From: a virus
DNA: 20,584 nt
Direction: 5' to 3' (one strand)
IMG/VR virus record: IMGVR_UViG_3300046010_001999
Coordinates: 1-20,584 of that record
Numbering within the stretch: the stretch's first letter is position 1; each line of letters begins with the position of its first letter. A program made the position numbers and the translations under genes. Under the pieces are notes generated by a model. The model searched no databases. It saw only the letters and a program-made list of their open reading frames with translations, and was not told the origin of the DNA. This document shows, one piece after another, positions 7,478-19,434 of this stretch.

Positions 7478-7602
7478 ACAACAACTGTCAAGGCTGTGGC
7501 TGTGACCCAACTGATATTTGTTGGCCTAATCAAAACCTATTAAGAGAACAATGGCTTAAGGACAACCCAGATGCAAAATACGAAGGATGGATGTCAATAT
7601 GA
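7459..7602 (+). CDS. Small Cys-rich protein
   Basis: This 47-residue ORF, MDKEEIDNNCQGCGCDPTDI followed by CWPNQNLLREQWLKDNPDAK and YEGWMSI, overlaps the end of the methyltransferase by 19 bases. Its TGA overlaps the ATG of the endolysin (ATGA at 7599). Four cysteines (CQGCGC then C after six residues) form a plausible small metal knuckle. The tight overlaps and protein-like composition argue that it is translated. No family was recognised. Confidence 0.6.
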   Translation: MDKEEIDNNCQGCGCDPTDICWPNQNLLREQWLKDNPDAKYEGWMSI

Positions 7603-8003
7603 CAACTGTTGTCAAGAAAGCCACACCTGCTGCAATTGCTGTATTGCGCCAAGCGACGGCACTTTGGCCCAAGCGGAAGAAAGCAAGCGATGGTCTACTA
7701 CCATCTGCTGCTCATTTAAGTCAGAGTCCTAACTCAGACCACAATACTGGATTAGCAGTTGACTTAACAGATGACCCAGCCAACGGGGTAGATTGCAAAG
7801 ATATTTACCAAAGATTACAAAATGATATCAGAGTTAAGTATCTAATATTTAAAGGTAAAATTTGGAGCAAGGAAAAAGGGGAACATACCTACAAAGGTAG
7901 CAACCAACATAATAAACATTTACATATTTCAATTAAAACAGAATACGCTAAAGACGATTCTAACTGGTTCAGTTGGATGGGTCTACCACCTAAAAAAAAA
8001 TAG
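7599..8003 (+). CDS. Endolysin, M15-type metallopeptidase
   Basis: The chosen start is the ATG at 7599, because it overlaps the previous TGA (ATGA) and has AAGGA upstream at 7583-7587. An ATG at 7587 would add four residues. The 134-residue protein shows the zinc site of the VanY/L-Ala-D-Glu peptidase group: SDHNTGLAVDL with His48 and Asp55, and HLHIS with His109. It is a single catalytic domain with no signal peptide and no separate cell-wall-binding domain. It should cleave peptidoglycan stem peptides at lysis. The holin-like gene follows 8 bases later, forming a standard lysis cassette. Confidence 0.85.
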   Translation: MTTVVKKATPAAIAVLRQATALWPKRKKASDGLLPSAAHLSQSPNSDHNTGLAVDLTDDPANGVDCKDIYQRLQNDIRVKYLIFKGKIWSKEKGEHTYKGSNQHNKHLHISIKTEYAKDDSNWFSWMGLPPKKK

Positions 8004-12726: not shown

Positions 12727-13010
12727 TGGCTAAAGAATACGGTCCATATAAAGGAAGTAAAGCCAATGGTGGTAGACCCATTATGGTTATTAAAAAGAAA
12801 GTTAATGGTAAGATTAAAACAACATCTACCAATGCTGCTCGTGCATTATTTAAGAAAGCAACGGGTAAGAAGTTAAAACGTAATCAAGAAGTAGACCACA
12901 AAGATAACAAAGGTCGTGCTGGTACTAACGATAAGATGTCCAACCTGGGTATCATATCTAAAAGCAAAAATGTTGCTAAAGAAAATAAGAGACGGGCTAA
13001 AAAGAAATGA
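12726..13010 (+). CDS. Small basic HNH-type protein
   Basis: The protein is 94 residues from ATG 12726. The start is fixed by the TAATG overlap and an AGGAG about 8 bases upstream. It is strongly basic. Residues 55-82 read EVDHKDNKGRAGTNDKMSNL followed by a SKSKN segment. This gives the Asp-His pair, Asn and final Asn of the ββα-metal HNH core, without zinc-binding cysteines. It may be a small DNA nuclease (a homing, packaging or recombination helper). It overlaps the phosphoesterase gene by four bases (ATGA), so it belongs to the operon and is not a free-standing insertion. Confidence 0.75.
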   Translation: MAKEYGPYKGSKANGGRPIMVIKKKVNGKIKTTSTNAARALFKKATGKKLKRNQEVDHKDNKGRAGTNDKMSNLGIISKSKNVAKENKRRAKKK

Positions 13011-13747
13011 AAATTATAGTCTGCGTATCTGATTTACAGGTACCGTACCACGATAGAAAAGCAGTATCTGTACTGTCTAAGTTTATAAAACAATATAAAC
13101 CTGACGAGGTGGTATCTGTTGGGGATGAAATGGATATGCAGACTATCTCAAAATGGAGTAAGGGTACTGACCTTGAACACGAGAAGTCTATTGCTAGAGA
13201 TAGAGACGAAACATATCGTGTGCTTGAATCATTAAAGATTAAACATATGATTCGATCTAACCATACAGATAGATTGTTTAATACAATTAAGATGAGGGCG
13301 CCAGGACTTGCTGGCTTACCTGAATTAGAGTTAAAAAACTTCCTAAGACTTGATAATTTAGGCATTACTTACCACGAAAAACCATATGAATTAGCACCTA
13401 ATTGGTTGCTATTGCACGGTGATGAGGGTAATGTGCAACCTACTGCTGGTGCTACCGCACTCGGACTAGCCAAACGTGCTGGTATGTCTGTAGTCTGCGG
13501 TCATACGCACCGTATGGGCTTGACACATTACACTCAGTCATACTTTGGTGGACACCCTAAAACTCTTTGGGGCTTAGAGGTTGGTTGCTTGATGGACTTT
13601 AAGTTTGCTAAGTATGTTAAGGGGGGATTGTTTACGTGGCACAAAGGTTTCGGTGTCTTATACGTAGATGGAAATAAAGTTATACCACATCTTGTTCCAG
13701 TTAATATGGATGGTTCATTTGTATTTGACGGTAAGGTGTGGAAGTAA
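13007..13747 (+). CDS. Calcineurin-like metallophosphoesterase
   Basis: This 246-residue protein has the metallophosphoesterase metal motifs in order: SDLQVPYHD (Asp9, with Gln11 where His is usual, and His15), VGDEMD (Asp40), SNHTD (Asn85-His86), LLHGDEG (His137) and CGHTHR (His166, His168). The Gln in motif I and the Ser before NH are departures from the classic DxH and GNH(D/E). They occur in some phage members and may alter metal use. Its place in a replication operon suggests a role on nucleic acid or nucleotides, but the substrate is not evident. Confidence 0.8.
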   Translation: MKIIVCVSDLQVPYHDRKAVSVLSKFIKQYKPDEVVSVGDEMDMQTISKWSKGTDLEHEKSIARDRDETYRVLESLKIKHMIRSNHTDRLFNTIKMRAPGLAGLPELELKNFLRLDNLGITYHEKPYELAPNWLLLHGDEGNVQPTAGATALGLAKRAGMSVVCGHTHRMGLTHYTQSYFGGHPKTLWGLEVGCLMDFKFAKYVKGGLFTWHKGFGVLYVDGNKVIPHLVPVNMDGSFVFDGKVWK

Positions 13748-15053: not shown

Positions 15054-15280
15054 TAGCCGATCTCCTCATCTTCTGGTGTTGGTGCTGTTGCAAGAGTGCC
15101 ACATAAAGCGCACTCCATATCTAAGAAATACATATCAATCTCACCAGTTTCTTCATCAAACACAGTCTTTAAGTTCCATATATTACAACCGCAAGGACAT
15201 ACAGTAGTGGCTCTACCTCTTATGTCCATTGCAGATTTGTAATCAGGCTTAAGTTCTGTGATATGCTTTGGATTGTTGAT
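15053..15280 (-). CDS. Small zinc-ribbon protein, apparent ATC start
   Basis: The ORF contains VCPCGCNIWNLKTVFDEETG, then MYFLDMECALCGTLATAPTP. The two cysteine clusters (CPCGC and CALC) form a zinc ribbon of a kind seen in actinobacteriophage genomes. An internal ATG at 15229 has no ribosome site and would lose the conserved-looking NPKHITELKPDYKSAMDIRGR segment. The frame extends to an ATC at 15280 that forms TAATC with the upstream stop, exactly where neighbouring genes have TAATG. AAGGG lies 9 bases before it. With that start the protein is 75 residues. The downstream end overlaps the FmdB gene. Function unknown. Confidence 0.7.
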   Translation of the reverse strand: MNNPKHITELKPDYKSAMDIRGRATTVCPCGCNIWNLKTVFDEETGEIDMYFLDMECALCGTLATAPTPEDEEIG

Positions 15281-15681
15281 TAGTAATATCCCTTCTTAGT
15301 AAAGAACTCCCACGCCTTGCAGGGGGTAACATATCTATTATATATATATGACAGCCCTCTGTCAATTTGTTTAGGCGCAGGAGTCTTAGGGTCAAGCCCT
15401 AATATTTGTGGAATACCTCCAGCATTTTTGCCCATAACTTTTATTTTGTTGTAAGCATTGGGTCTCCAGTTGCTTTCTTTAGTCCACAATTTATTAAGGC
15501 AGTTCCATTGTTTATGCTTGAAGTCGTATAGTTTATCTTGTGCATATGCTTTGCTATCCTCTATTGTCCATTCCATCTTAGGGTCAAGGACTGCGGGTGG
15601 GCTGGACACAGGGGTAGCAAATCTTATACTAACCATTATCAATAAAGCAACAGTAAGTATAAATATAATTTCTTTTCTCAT
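15280..15681 (-). CDS. Secreted or membrane-anchored lytic transglycosylase-like protein
   Basis: The 133-residue protein starts with a short basic end and a hydrophobic segment (residues 5-24, IIFILTVALLIMVSIRFATP), a signal peptide or anchor. The C-terminal domain reads WNCLNKLWTKESNWRPNAYN and GKNAGGIPQILGLD, ending with YNRYVTPCKAWEFF. KES (Glu69) is the catalytic Glu region of SLT/lysozyme-like actinobacterial transglycosylases, and Cys61 and Cys121 could form a disulfide. It should cut peptidoglycan glycan strands outside the membrane. The start overlaps a small membrane ORF (ATGA), suggesting coupled expression. It is separate from the main lysis cassette. Confidence 0.8.
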   Translation of the reverse strand: MRKEIIFILTVALLIMVSIRFATPVSSPPAVLDPKMEWTIEDSKAYAQDKLYDFKHKQWNCLNKLWTKESNWRPNAYNKIKVMGKNAGGIPQILGLDPKTPAPKQIDRGLSYIYNRYVTPCKAWEFFTKKGYY

Positions 15682-16581: not shown

Positions 16582-16872
16582 TTATGGGCGGAATACTACA
16601 GTAGTATAACCTTCTAAGCGTGAGTGCTTGGTAATCAAGCCCTTCTCACCAGTCAAGTGTTGATACTTGCCGTTGCCTAGAGATACCCACATAGACTTAG
16701 GCTTAAACCTAGACTGTGTTGGTAGTGCTTTAAGTATTGTGCCCTTAGGTTCATATCCATTGACACTATCTACATCAAACTGGACTGTCGCAAGTTCATC
16801 TGCTAAGTCCGCTAGTGTCATTGATATGCTAGCCAAGTAGTCCTCATATACTCGTGCTGTCGTGGTTGTCAT
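16582..16872 (-). CDS. Hypothetical protein after an operator-controlled promoter
   Basis: The start is placed at 16872 because AAAGG lies about 7 bases upstream, inside the five codons of a longer alternative from 16887. The 96-residue protein (MTTTTARVYEDYLASISMTL, then LADELATVQFDVDSVNGYEP) has a helical N-terminal half and a beta-rich end (KSMWVSLGNGKYQHL, LEGYTTVVFRP). No family was recognised. It is the first gene read from the promoter at 16938-16966, and a CTTGG/CCAAG hairpin lies in its leader. Confidence 0.7.
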   Translation of the reverse strand: MTTTTARVYEDYLASISMTLADLADELATVQFDVDSVNGYEPKGTILKALPTQSRFKPKSMWVSLGNGKYQHLTGEKGLITKHSRLEGYTTVVFRP

Positions 16873-16932
16873 TGTATTACCTTTCATTGTTATCCGCTTG
16901 GCAATTTACCAAGTGGTGTCTGTTGGTATCGA

Positions 16933-16949
16933 TAGTGATTATATCACTA
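16933..16949. promoter_or_regulatory. Palindromic operator over the -10
   Basis: TAGTGAT, three bases, ATCACTA: an exact 7-base inverted repeat centred on the TATAAT of the promoter at 16938. A dimeric repressor bound here would block RNA polymerase. Confidence 0.6.
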
Positions 16950-16966
16950 CCAATTCTAGAAGTCAA
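16938..16966 (-). promoter_or_regulatory. Consensus promoter with extended -10
   Basis: Read on the minus strand: TTGACT (16961-16966), a 17-base spacer ending in TGA, then TATAAT (16938-16943). The -35 lies over the last codons of the amidotransferase gene. The -10 lies inside a palindrome. Confidence 0.85.
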
Positions 16967-17819
16967 GTGGCTCTTTACTATACCACTTCTCACTTAAAAA
17001 TCCATACTCATCTCTTATCATACTCTTAGCGTTAGGATTGTAGCATAGGCAGTCTAAGAACTGTGCGCTACAATCAAAGCAACACTCACATATCAAGCAG
17101 TAGAGTTCGCTCTCATATAAATCTACTATAGCCATACAATTAGGACACTCGAACTTGTGATAATCAAACCCGCTATCCTCTTGCACTACTATATCATATA
17201 CACTAGGCTCATCACCATAGGTGTAGTTATAACTCTCGGTGCGTGGTGTAGATATTGTAGGCTTGTATGAAGTATTACTCCACCATATACCATTATCGTC
17301 CCAACTACCTAGACTTTCATTGATAATATAAATCTTATACTGTGCGCTAGGGTCATTAGTCATTACCGCAACCTTGCTACCACTAGCCCACGCACTTATC
17401 ATATCATATACATAATCATCATCTAACGCAGACACGCCACCAAGTCTAGGCAATAATTCCTCTGCCATAATCCTAGTGTCGCTACGCTTATCACCTTTAG
17501 GTATATGAATATCTAGCACGCCATTGTGCGCTAAGTAAGTATCGTGCTCACCTACTACCTTAAATGGGTGGCAGTTGAGTTCGTTCTTAACTCCGTGAGT
17601 AGCATACCTAGCGTGCCACATAGCATAGCCATTAGGATATTGCTCACGCAATTCTAAGAACCTAGCGATAGATTTCTTAGCGGACATACTGCGTTCAGAT
17701 ATAATACCCGAACCAGTATCTATTGCAAACCCAAAGCCGTGTGGATTACTACAAGCACCCATCTTTAGGTCATCTTTACTAGGTGTGGAATTAGGATTAC
17801 ACACCACTAACAAGCACAT
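16956..17819 (-). CDS. Class II glutamine amidotransferase-like protein with Cys-rich tail
   Basis: The 287-residue protein begins Met-Cys, so Cys2 becomes the N-terminal nucleophile after Met removal. Family motifs follow: HARYATHG (69-76), NCHPF (82-86), YLAHNGVLD (95-103) and GDKRSDT (109-115). This is an Ntn-hydrolase glutaminase that releases ammonia from glutamine. No synthetase domain is fused. Instead, residues 225-259 carry CPNC, CLICECC, C and CLC, a likely zinc-binding tail. AAGGGGG lies 6 bases before the ATG, and the gene starts 11 bases after the amidoligase, its probable partner. The next promoter's -35 overlaps its stop. Confidence 0.85.
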   Translation of the reverse strand: MCLLVVCNPNSTPSKDDLKMGACSNPHGFGFAIDTGSGIISERSMSAKKSIARFLELREQYPNGYAMWHARYATHGVKNELNCHPFKVVGEHDTYLAHNGVLDIHIPKGDKRSDTRIMAEELLPRLGGVSALDDDYVYDMISAWASGSKVAVMTNDPSAQYKIYIINESLGSWDDNGIWWSNTSYKPTISTPRTESYNYTYGDEPSVYDIVVQEDSGFDYHKFECPNCMAIVDLYESELYCLICECCFDCSAQFLDCLCYNPNAKSMIRDEYGFLSEKWYSKEPLDF

Positions 17820-17830
17820 ACTTTACCCCC

Positions 17831-19024
17831 TTACGCATTGACTAACTCTTTACTATCGATTACTAACTTATCTACTCTACTCATACGCATATAGAGTTCA
17901 GGATATAAACCATTATTGGCTTGTATCCAGTCAGAGAACCACTCCCAACTTAGCGCACCCATCTTTACATCAGATAGGGTTAAGTCCCTAGTGTATTCTA
18001 CTGTTGCGTGTGCTAATTGTATAGCACTAAGCACACCTTCGGGGTTCATAGTTCCCCTAAAGAACCTAAGTTCTAGGGTGTGTTCGTTCTGCGTATTCAC
18101 CGCAGAATATCTTTCGGTCATACTATTACTAGGGTGAGCAACCTTGTGCGCTAGTGTGAAGTATGGTCTATCGAACTCATCATCTTTATACACATCATTA
18201 AACCTAGCGTAGTTAGATTTACGCCCACCTAACTTCATCATCTTATCAGAGTTCTTATAGATAAGTGATAAGAACCTATGCGTGTGTGCGCCACCCTTAA
18301 ACCCTGCCCTGCTGATATGGATATGAAGTCCGCAACTCTTAGCGTCCCAACTTCTAGCAATATGAACCTTGCGTAGATAATCTAGCGTAGTCCATAAGTT
18401 CTTATTGGTAGCAAAATAATCAAGAGTAGCAGGGTGAGATACCATCTCGAACCCACGATACCCACCACTATTTATACTACTATCCTCTTTAAGATATACA
18501 AAATCGCCCATCATCTCCATTATATATTCTGAACTATCTACTAGTTCATTATCTCTAATCTCCATCTCTAGTTCTATACCGAAGTGTAGTTTATTCTTAT
18601 CCTCACCATAGAATATAGGGCGTGGCTTGTAAGAGTATTGGTGAACTTGTCCACCGCCCTCACAACTCCCGCACTCCTCTCGATTATACACTTCGCAACT
18701 ATCGCACCAGTTGGCGTTATCAGAGCAACAACTTTCACACCAATAAGAACCAATATCCTCTAGGTGATAACTACTCTCATTTTCAGAGTATAAGCACTCG
18801 CAAGCCTCGCACCAGAAGGTATGATTATCAGCGCAAGGTTCGCACCAAGTTCCAACACCCTCTACATACCTAGAGTTTTCTTCGAAGTCGTAGTTATCGC
18901 AACGCTCACAATAGATACGACACTCAGAGCATAGCACATTACCATTTAAGGTAGTGGCTAAGTCGTCAGGGTCATAGCCAGTAGAGCAACTATCGCACTC
19001 TACTAACTCTATACCATCAGACAT
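17831..19024 (-). CDS. Phage amidoligase with N-terminal zinc-ribbon repeats
   Basis: The 397-residue protein has two parts. Residues 10-121 hold at least six CxxC pairs (CDSC, CSEC, CERC, CEPC, CEAC, CESCC, CDSC, CGSC) in repeated WC(E/D)xC(C) units, a multi-zinc array. From residue 147 the glutamine-synthetase-like amidoligase fold is visible: HFGIELEMEI (147-156), LKEDSSI (178-184), FEMVSHPATL (192-201), CGLHIHIS (231-238) and LELRFFRGTMNPEG (317-330). The Glu, His and Arg residues should bind ATP-Mg and an acyl-phosphate. Such enzymes join a carboxylate to an amine. AAGGAG lies about 6 bases before the ATG. It is co-transcribed with the amidotransferase. Confidence 0.85.
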   Translation of the reverse strand: MSDGIELVECDSCSTGYDPDDLATTLNGNVLCSECRIYCERCDNYDFEENSRYVEGVGTWCEPCADNHTFWCEACECLYSENESSYHLEDIGSYWCESCCSDNANWCDSCEVYNREECGSCEGGGQVHQYSYKPRPIFYGEDKNKLHFGIELEMEIRDNELVDSSEYIMEMMGDFVYLKEDSSINSGGYRGFEMVSHPATLDYFATNKNLWTTLDYLRKVHIARSWDAKSCGLHIHISRAGFKGGAHTHRFLSLIYKNSDKMMKLGGRKSNYARFNDVYKDDEFDRPYFTLAHKVAHPSNSMTERYSAVNTQNEHTLELRFFRGTMNPEGVLSAIQLAHATVEYTRDLTLSDVKMGALSWEWFSDWIQANNGLYPELYMRMSRVDKLVIDSKELVNA

Positions 19025-19033
19025 ATTTACTCC

Positions 19034-19210
19034 TTACTTTATTGGTAGTTCTAACTCTATCATTATATCATTAACTTTATTTCTTAGCAAACTAGTAGCC
19101 ATAGCCATACTCTTAAAGTCTGACCTAACATACCAGTTCTCTTGAGTTCTTAAAGATTTGCGGATTAACTCCAACTCATCTTTAGTTATCTCGATTACTA
19201 TGCTATCCAT
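19034..19210 (-). CDS. Small helical protein in the amidoligase operon
   Basis: This 58-residue ORF (MDSIVIEITKDELELIRKSL, then RTQENWYVRSDFKSMAMATS, ending ELPIK) lies one base after the membrane protein gene and ends 10 bases before the amidoligase. It is charged and mostly helical, with no known domain. Its conserved-looking position makes it a candidate carrier or substrate for the amidoligase. Confidence 0.65.
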   Translation of the reverse strand: MDSIVIEITKDELELIRKSLRTQENWYVRSDFKSMAMATSLLRNKVNDIMIELELPIK

Positions 19211-19211
19211 A

Positions 19212-19364
19212 TTACTTGCGTTCTCTGAACAACTTGATACTTCTTAGGGTGATAGCAACCACCGCTAAGATAATCAGCGTTCTATGTGGTAAATAAATAT
19301 CCACTAAATAACTGTCTAGGTAGGTGGCATAACCATCTACGCTAAACTCTCTAATGAACTCCAT
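19212..19364 (-). CDS. Small single-pass membrane protein, first gene of the amidoligase operon
   Basis: The start is placed at 19364: GGAG lies 5 bases upstream, and a longer reading to 19415 would begin beside the promoter -10. The 50-residue protein has a polar N-terminal half (MEFIREFSVDGYATYLDSYL), a membrane segment at about residues 28-44 (LIILAVVAITLRSIKL) and a basic end (FRERK). The basic C terminus suggests the N terminus faces out. It could anchor the amidoligase system at the membrane or be its target. Confidence 0.65.
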   Translation of the reverse strand: MEFIREFSVDGYATYLDSYLVDIYLPHRTLIILAVVAITLRSIKLFRERK

Positions 19365-19393: not shown

Positions 19394-19429
19394 GGCTACC
19401 CTCTAAGGATACCATACCCTTAAAGGATA
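19394..19429 (-). repeat. 18-base tandem repeat across the promoter
   Basis: TATCCTTTAAGGGTATGG (19412-19429) and TATCCTTAGAGGGTAGCC (19394-19411) are adjacent imperfect copies. Each is itself a near-palindrome (CCTT/AAGG). The first fills the promoter spacer and the second starts at the -10, as expected of a double operator. Confidence 0.55.
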
Positions 19430-19434
19430 GTCAA
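19406..19434 (-). promoter_or_regulatory. Promoter of the amidoligase operon
   Basis: On the minus strand: TTGACT (19429-19434), 17 bases ending TGG, then TATCCT (19406-19411), an extended -10. The start point should lie near 19399, giving a short leader to the ATG at 19364. Confidence 0.8.

Follow-up and report, generated by a model that had tools for sequence, protein, structure and literature searches.

Two enzymes and two small proteins are encoded in a compact four-gene operon that is conserved in the phage lineage studied here. The gene products most likely form a glutamine-dependent amidating or ligating machine at the host envelope, with a putative substrate. The window analyzed, a whole virus record of 20,584 bases, is apparently a genome fragment, because 17 of the 18 longer relatives span 38-41 kb; the whole genome would thus be about 40 kb. 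The lineage is a freshwater phage family whose hosts are probably actinobacteria, because the window carries a WhiB-like gene.

The gene run and its linkage in relatives

The four open reading frames of the run all lie on the minus strand and are separated by gaps of only 1, 9 and 11 nt. They encode, from upstream to downstream, a 50-residue single-pass membrane protein with a basic C-terminal tail (19212..19364, from the ATG at 19364), a 58-residue protein named S58 (19034..19210), an amidoligase of 397 residues with an N-terminal cysteine (putative zinc) array (17831..19024), and a class II glutamine amidotransferase of 287 residues (16956..17819). The ligase start is preceded by AAGGAGTAAAT. 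The preliminary description had read the region as a four-gene run bounded by two promoters, and this arrangement was recovered in full, both as open reading frames and in its conservation among relatives.

Two promoter-like sites on the minus strand frame the run. The site preceding it (19406..19434) reads TTGACT-17-TATCCT, with a TG before the -10 box (extended -10) and 9 of 12 matches. It is real as a pattern, and relatives such as L003, L016, L029 and L052 have it in the corresponding position. The next site (16938..16966; TTGACT-17-TATAAT, extended -10) is the stronger one, with 11 of 12 matches; it overlaps the last amidotransferase codons and recurs in about 10 relatives. A second good promoter-like site lies inside the run, at 19090-19062. 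Promoter-like matches in the region are in slight excess over shuffled sequences (26 vs 18.8 +/- 4.5), and therefore position is a better argument for a promoter than match count.

The next gene downstream, D101 (16582..16887, minus strand), lies outside the run and has its own promoter-like site. Its product, about 100 residues long and of unknown family, has the conserved core KSMWVSLGxGxYxHLTGxKGL. The gene follows the enzyme pair in most of the lineage and adjoins it in the closer part. D101 was undetected in some relatives that keep the pair (L333, L343, L344, L347, L348, L351 and L353).

Linkage was assessed with neighbouring genes as baits, namely D101 and a phosphoesterase gene (13007-13747). 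Both lie outside the unit, so the count is not circular. With D101 as bait, the amidotransferase gene was found upstream in 70 of 70 loci with room for it. With the phosphoesterase as bait, 38 loci had 5 kb or more of room, and the enzyme pair was present in all 38; in these loci ligase identity drops to 35% while the bait holds 92-100%. In the viral collection, the gap between the ligase and amidotransferase genes is 8-15 nt in lineage loci reaching both.

The small genes were followed in 67 representatives of the lineage, obtained by clustering at 90% ligase identity; L102 and L105 are two further representatives outside the lineage. S58 was found in 63 of the 67, and 2342 frames from elsewhere contained no copy. 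The region within 900 nt upstream of the ligase gene holds a small open reading frame with one strong hydrophobic segment in 52 representatives, compared with 31 of 271 control segments (11%); in the other 15 representatives it was undetected. Where both small genes were called, the membrane gene was upstream of S58 in all 34 loci. The four-gene operon is therefore real and conserved, and the lack of linkage in relatives that would have spoken against the preliminary description was not seen.

The two enzyme genes are also adjacent in phage Marvin, in Methylophilales phages, in a Manatee Spring podovirus and in a faecal phage contig. The Manatee Spring phage is unrelated and encodes a hydrophobic membrane protein of 37 residues two genes upstream of its ligase. 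In the faecal contig (L105, MT839723; 4161-6163), the gene after a distant zinc-array amidoligase encodes a class II amidotransferase-like protein that belongs to another subfamily and lacks the cysteine tail, and a helix-turn-helix-like gene adjoins the two. A similar amidoligase is encoded by a Clostridioides difficile phage (L103), in which the next downstream gene is, by eye, not an amidotransferase. The sole bacterial copy in the genome scan was a ligase gene at 80% identity on a 3.3-kb contig of a Rhodobacteraceae metagenome-assembled genome (L108, RFQY01000240.1), more likely a misbinned phage contig.

Other genes of these phages were noted in passing. In the window, a membrane-anchored transglycosylase-like protein (15280-15681, minus strand) and a peptidase-like protein (7587-8003, plus strand), both recognized by eye, are candidate wall-active or lysis proteins. 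Relatives of 40 kb encode a protein of about 190 residues that starts MTAIVGIQGKGWAVLASDS (L188:7000-7566, minus strand; record G001 27000-27566), with similar proteins in 10 further relatives. It has a proteasome-beta/HslV-like match just above the Pfam cut-off, adjoins large open reading frames of the apparent structural region and is absent from the window fragment. It is possibly an Ntn-type head-maturation protease.

The four proteins

Residues 148-340 of the ligase match Amidoligase_2 (PF12224; E 3e-9, 37.5 bits vs a curated cut-off of 22), a family that was matched at E <= 0.1 in all 63 aligned ligase members. The protein also matches phrog_22302 (E 5e-34). Searching solved structures by sequence gave nothing useful for the ligase. 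An AF2 model built from 63 window and viral-contig sequences had a pLDDT of 86. In VIA-align, residues about 142-397 of this model, the GS-like catalytic domain (17834..18601, minus strand), superimposed on YbdK (1r8g) with a Z score of 12.5 and 228 residues aligned at 4.0 A. Plant glutamate-cysteine ligase gave Z 11.9 and glutamine synthetases Z 11-12. These proteins have the fold in common with the ligase but are only 8-16% identical to it and have no zinc array. Foldseek matches were YbdK, glutamine synthetases, Dop and PafA.

The ligase alignment contains eight invariant residues: E151, E153, E193, H234, H236, R305, E318 and R320. Their E-x-E, H-x-H and E-x-R motifs probably serve metal and ATP binding, as assigned by motif rather than by superposition. 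The GS-fold amidoligase announced in the preliminary description was thus confirmed by family match, motifs and fold, and the loss of ATP-binding Glu and Arg residues that would have spoken against it was not seen, catalytic residues being kept in 63 ligases and likewise in 61 amidotransferases.

Ahead of the catalytic domain, residues 10-121 (18662..18997, minus strand) form an array of 16 cysteines arranged as four CXXC...CXXC sets (10/13/32/35, 39/42/61/64, 72/75/96/99 and 107/110/118/121). In the 63 sequences 15 of the 16 are invariant, the exception being C110, which is nearly invariant. LIM-domain matches to the ligase were weak (Foldseek, E 0.1-0.5). The N terminus had been described as multi-zinc. 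Its four conserved cysteine sites stand, while zinc binding itself, here as in the amidotransferase tail described below, is a prediction from the cysteine motif.

The amidotransferase has a GATase_4 match over the Pfam cut-off (E 5e-6) and matches phrog_25883 (E 9e-37). GlmS came first in sequence searches, and NCBIfam matches to GlmS and PurF were weak only. The class II motifs are all kept: the Cys2 nucleophile, R71, T74-H75-G76, H98-N99-G100 and S113-D114-T115 are invariant in 61 sequences. The model (pLDDT 73, with low to moderate confidence for the linker and cysteine tail) superimposed over residues 2-193 on the GlmS glutaminase domain (1xff) with Z 12.2, indicating an Ntn fold. It also fits PurF, and EgtC is among the closest relatives (Z 11.4). 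The catalytic residues are common to these enzymes, at 14-20% identity; unlike GlmS, PurF and EgtC, the lineage protein adds a tail of eight cysteines (C225/228/241/244/247/250/257/259; 17043..17147, minus strand), invariant in the 61 sequences. The tail cysteine pattern is also found in Marvin gp106. The class II amidotransferase with a Cys-rich tail was therefore correctly recognized from the start.

Among close relatives, the ligase array diverges far more than the catalytic domain. In 16 of the 17 relatives with a catalytic-domain identity of at least 87%, dS was 0.8-2.2 in the array vs 0.2-0.6 in the catalytic domain, L004 being the exception. Nucleotide identity tends upward after about 360 nt of the ligase gene. 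A reverse mosaic was found in L027, with 68% identity in the array and 58% in the catalytic domain. In the simplest reading, recombination may have brought together arrays and catalytic domains that had separate histories. Such mosaicism would be expected of an array that reads a changing partner, but this is no proof.

The cysteine-rich regions had also been suggested to dock the two enzymes to each other. The amidotransferase tail covaries with the array more than with the ligase catalytic domain (partial Mantel r 0.34-0.48 in 28 sequences), and the correlation was positive in 59 sequences as well, but it disappeared when more controls were applied to a subset of 13 sequences. Mantel tests are liberal with related sequences. 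Moreover, the distant relatives L102 and L105 keep the ligase array without the amidotransferase tail. The docking proposal was thus not borne out, and the covariation gives a hint of it at most.

The small membrane protein consists of one hydrophobic segment followed by the basic tail. A longer reading of 67 residues is possible from ATG 19415. The 50-residue form appears preferable: it has its own ribosome-binding site and is conserved in relatives, and ATG 19415 sits inside the promoter-like site. Several types of this membrane protein occur in the lineage; they show no obvious similarity in sequence but have a common layout, one pass and a basic tail. S58 was delineated by lineage alignment and had no family match in the databases searched. 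Its C termini vary (PIK, TKA, ARV, VRS and others), and none of the 46 counted ends in GGE or GGQ. It was rejected as a Pup-like tag since its C terminus is not conserved. The preliminary description had offered one of the small proteins or the peptidoglycan stem peptide as the substrate. Neither small protein looks like a specific substrate, because the C terminus of S58 varies and the membrane protein types are unlike in sequence. In PADLOC (anti-phage defence) none of the four proteins had a match, and a known defence system was rejected.

Related systems in other phages

The enzyme pair itself is not new, according to passages in the literature on Marvin, OM43 phages and phiEco32-type cassettes. 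An amidoligase with a glutamine amidotransferase is reported for OM43 phages in PMC10580990, which cites a predicted role in wall modification for phiEco32 and in metabolite synthesis for Marvin. A seven-gene 'peptidoglycan modification cassette', which adds an ATP-grasp protein and a gamma-glutamyl cyclotransferase to the amidoligase and GATase, is described for PSA-HP1, RIO-1, phiEco32, LUZ24 and others (PMC5498523), and such a cassette for UFV-P2 (PMC3890496). Wall modification and superinfection exclusion are predicted for related cassettes in passages of PMC10580990 and PMC5498523. In the passages concerned, the functional statements on these pairs are predictions with no activity shown (PMC10580990, PMC5498523, PMC3890496). 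The system had been called uncharacterised: biochemically this holds, but the pair was already reported in other phages with the same kind of prediction.

Marvin (cluster S) is similar in its adjacent amidoligase and class II amidotransferase genes, gp105 and gp106, whose products are 33-34% identical to those of the lineage, as well as in the eight-cysteine tail of gp106 and in cysteines ahead of the gp105 ligase domain. It differs in a 79-nt gap, a shorter cysteine region, a C-terminal extension and the lack of an S58 homologue, and the upstream gp104 is a different protein of 140 residues. The OM43 (Methylophilales) phages MEP401 and MEP402 also have adjacent genes, amidoligase then GATase, but with 26-31% identity, no eight-cysteine tail and a different N-terminal region.

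The cassettes of the phiEco32/RIO-1/LUZ24 type likewise have an Amidoligase_2 protein and a class II GATase in the early region, and their members include ATP-grasp, COOH-NH2 ligase and gamma-glutamyl cyclotransferase proteins. The lineage, in contrast, has one Amidoligase_2 gene per record, cysteine arrays and a small membrane protein. The other cassette genes were sought in 19 lineage records, the 20.6-kb window fragment included. Gamma-glutamyl cyclotransferase (GGACT, PF06094) was matched in none, while the positive controls StenR_269 and RHph_N3_13 both gave a match. RimK ATP-grasp (PF08443) was also matched in none of the 19; of its controls, StenR_269 gave a match and RHph_N3_13 was silent despite an annotated ATP-grasp. 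COOH-NH2 ligase (PF14395) had no match in the lineage, nor in any control. The cassette analogy is incomplete, because the published cassettes carry a gamma-glutamyl cyclotransferase and an ATP-grasp protein and PF06094 and PF08443 were unmatched here. What is new is the reduced form, with no GGACT or RimK-type ATP-grasp detected, together with the conserved membrane protein and S58 and the separately evolving putative zinc array.

Proposed mechanism and alternatives

From family knowledge and conserved residues, the class II glutaminase would hydrolyse glutamine with its Cys2 nucleophile, and the GS-fold ligase would use ATP to convert a carboxylate to an acyl phosphate. Ammonia would be handed from the glutaminase to the neighbouring ligase, as we infer from the constant pairing of the enzymes, and the acyl phosphate would become an amide (-COO- to -CONH2, -0.98 Da). 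The weakest step is the target, which would lie on or at the cell envelope and would most simply be a carboxylate of a peptidoglycan precursor; it is proposed because the membrane protein is conserved and published predictions point to the wall. The small membrane protein would place the complex at the membrane, the variable zinc array would read a host or phage partner, and the wall would be altered during infection, for example in superinfection control.

A phage machine for glutamine-dependent amidation of an envelope carboxylate, most simply in a peptidoglycan precursor, is thus put forward tentatively, at somewhat less than even confidence. Against ammonia supply, an amidotransferase fold need not provide ammonia, as the analogy with EgtC would suggest. 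Against membrane placement, the membrane proteins are of sequence-unlike types and escaped detection in the 15 representatives mentioned above. A more elaborate version, in which a membrane-placed, glutamine-driven complex amidates proteins or the wall and is targeted by the four-site zinc array, a module that phages exchange as host partners change, appears doubtful.

The main rival is a pair resembling EgtA and EgtC, because the closest folds fit nearly as well. YbdK/GCS2 enzymes and EgtA join glutamate to an amine, and EgtC is a gamma-glutamyl hydrolase in ergothioneine biosynthesis. By analogy, the phage ligase would attach an amino acid, glutamate or a different one, to an amine, without ammonia transfer, and the Ntn protein would be an EgtC-like hydrolase that removes the glutamyl group or finishes the product. 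YbdK and plant glutamate-cysteine ligase are indeed the closest solved relatives of the ligase, EgtC is among those of the Ntn protein, and related phage cassettes contain a gamma-glutamyl cyclotransferase (PMC5498523). However, the glutaminase domains of GlmS and PurF score equal or better, GlmS leads the sequence searches, and the 19 lineage records contain no cyclotransferase match. Attachment and removal of gamma-glutamyl groups by the pair is considered unlikely.

A soluble pathway, modifying a small molecule or nucleotide (a secondary metabolite or a DNA base precursor) and leaving the small proteins as incidental early genes, is distinctly improbable. The Marvin pair has been suggested to act in secondary metabolism (Mageeney 2012, as cited in PMC10580990), and one gene of the phages studied here is of the DUF1599 ('nucleotide modification associated') type. 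Nevertheless, the membrane protein and S58 persist across great divergence, and no known base-hypermodification enzyme was seen among 25 of the 30 families of a near-complete relative; base hypermodification was rejected on this ground.

Finally, protein modification of the PafA/Dop type, in which S58 or another small protein would be joined to host proteins by an isopeptide bond or a conjugate would be deamidated, is very unlikely: Dop and PafA are among the best Foldseek matches, the small protein S58 accompanies the ligase, and pupylation exists in actinobacteria, to which the likely host belongs (WhiB gene), but S58 lacks a conserved C terminus, with no GGE or GGQ ending, YbdK and glutamine synthetases fit the ligase model equally well or better, and a class II glutaminase has, to our knowledge, no role in pupylation.

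Altogether, amidoligase/glutaminase pairs are common in phages, yet the functional statements made on them in passages of PMC10580990, PMC5498523 and PMC3890496 are all predictions. The version found in this lineage is reduced to two enzymes and two small proteins that are retained across large divergence; this keeps the substrate question experimentally small. If the target is a protein, the operon would represent a new kind of phage protein modification. If peptidoglycan precursors are amidated, as tentatively proposed here, it would give the phage a means of rewriting the wall of the infected host.
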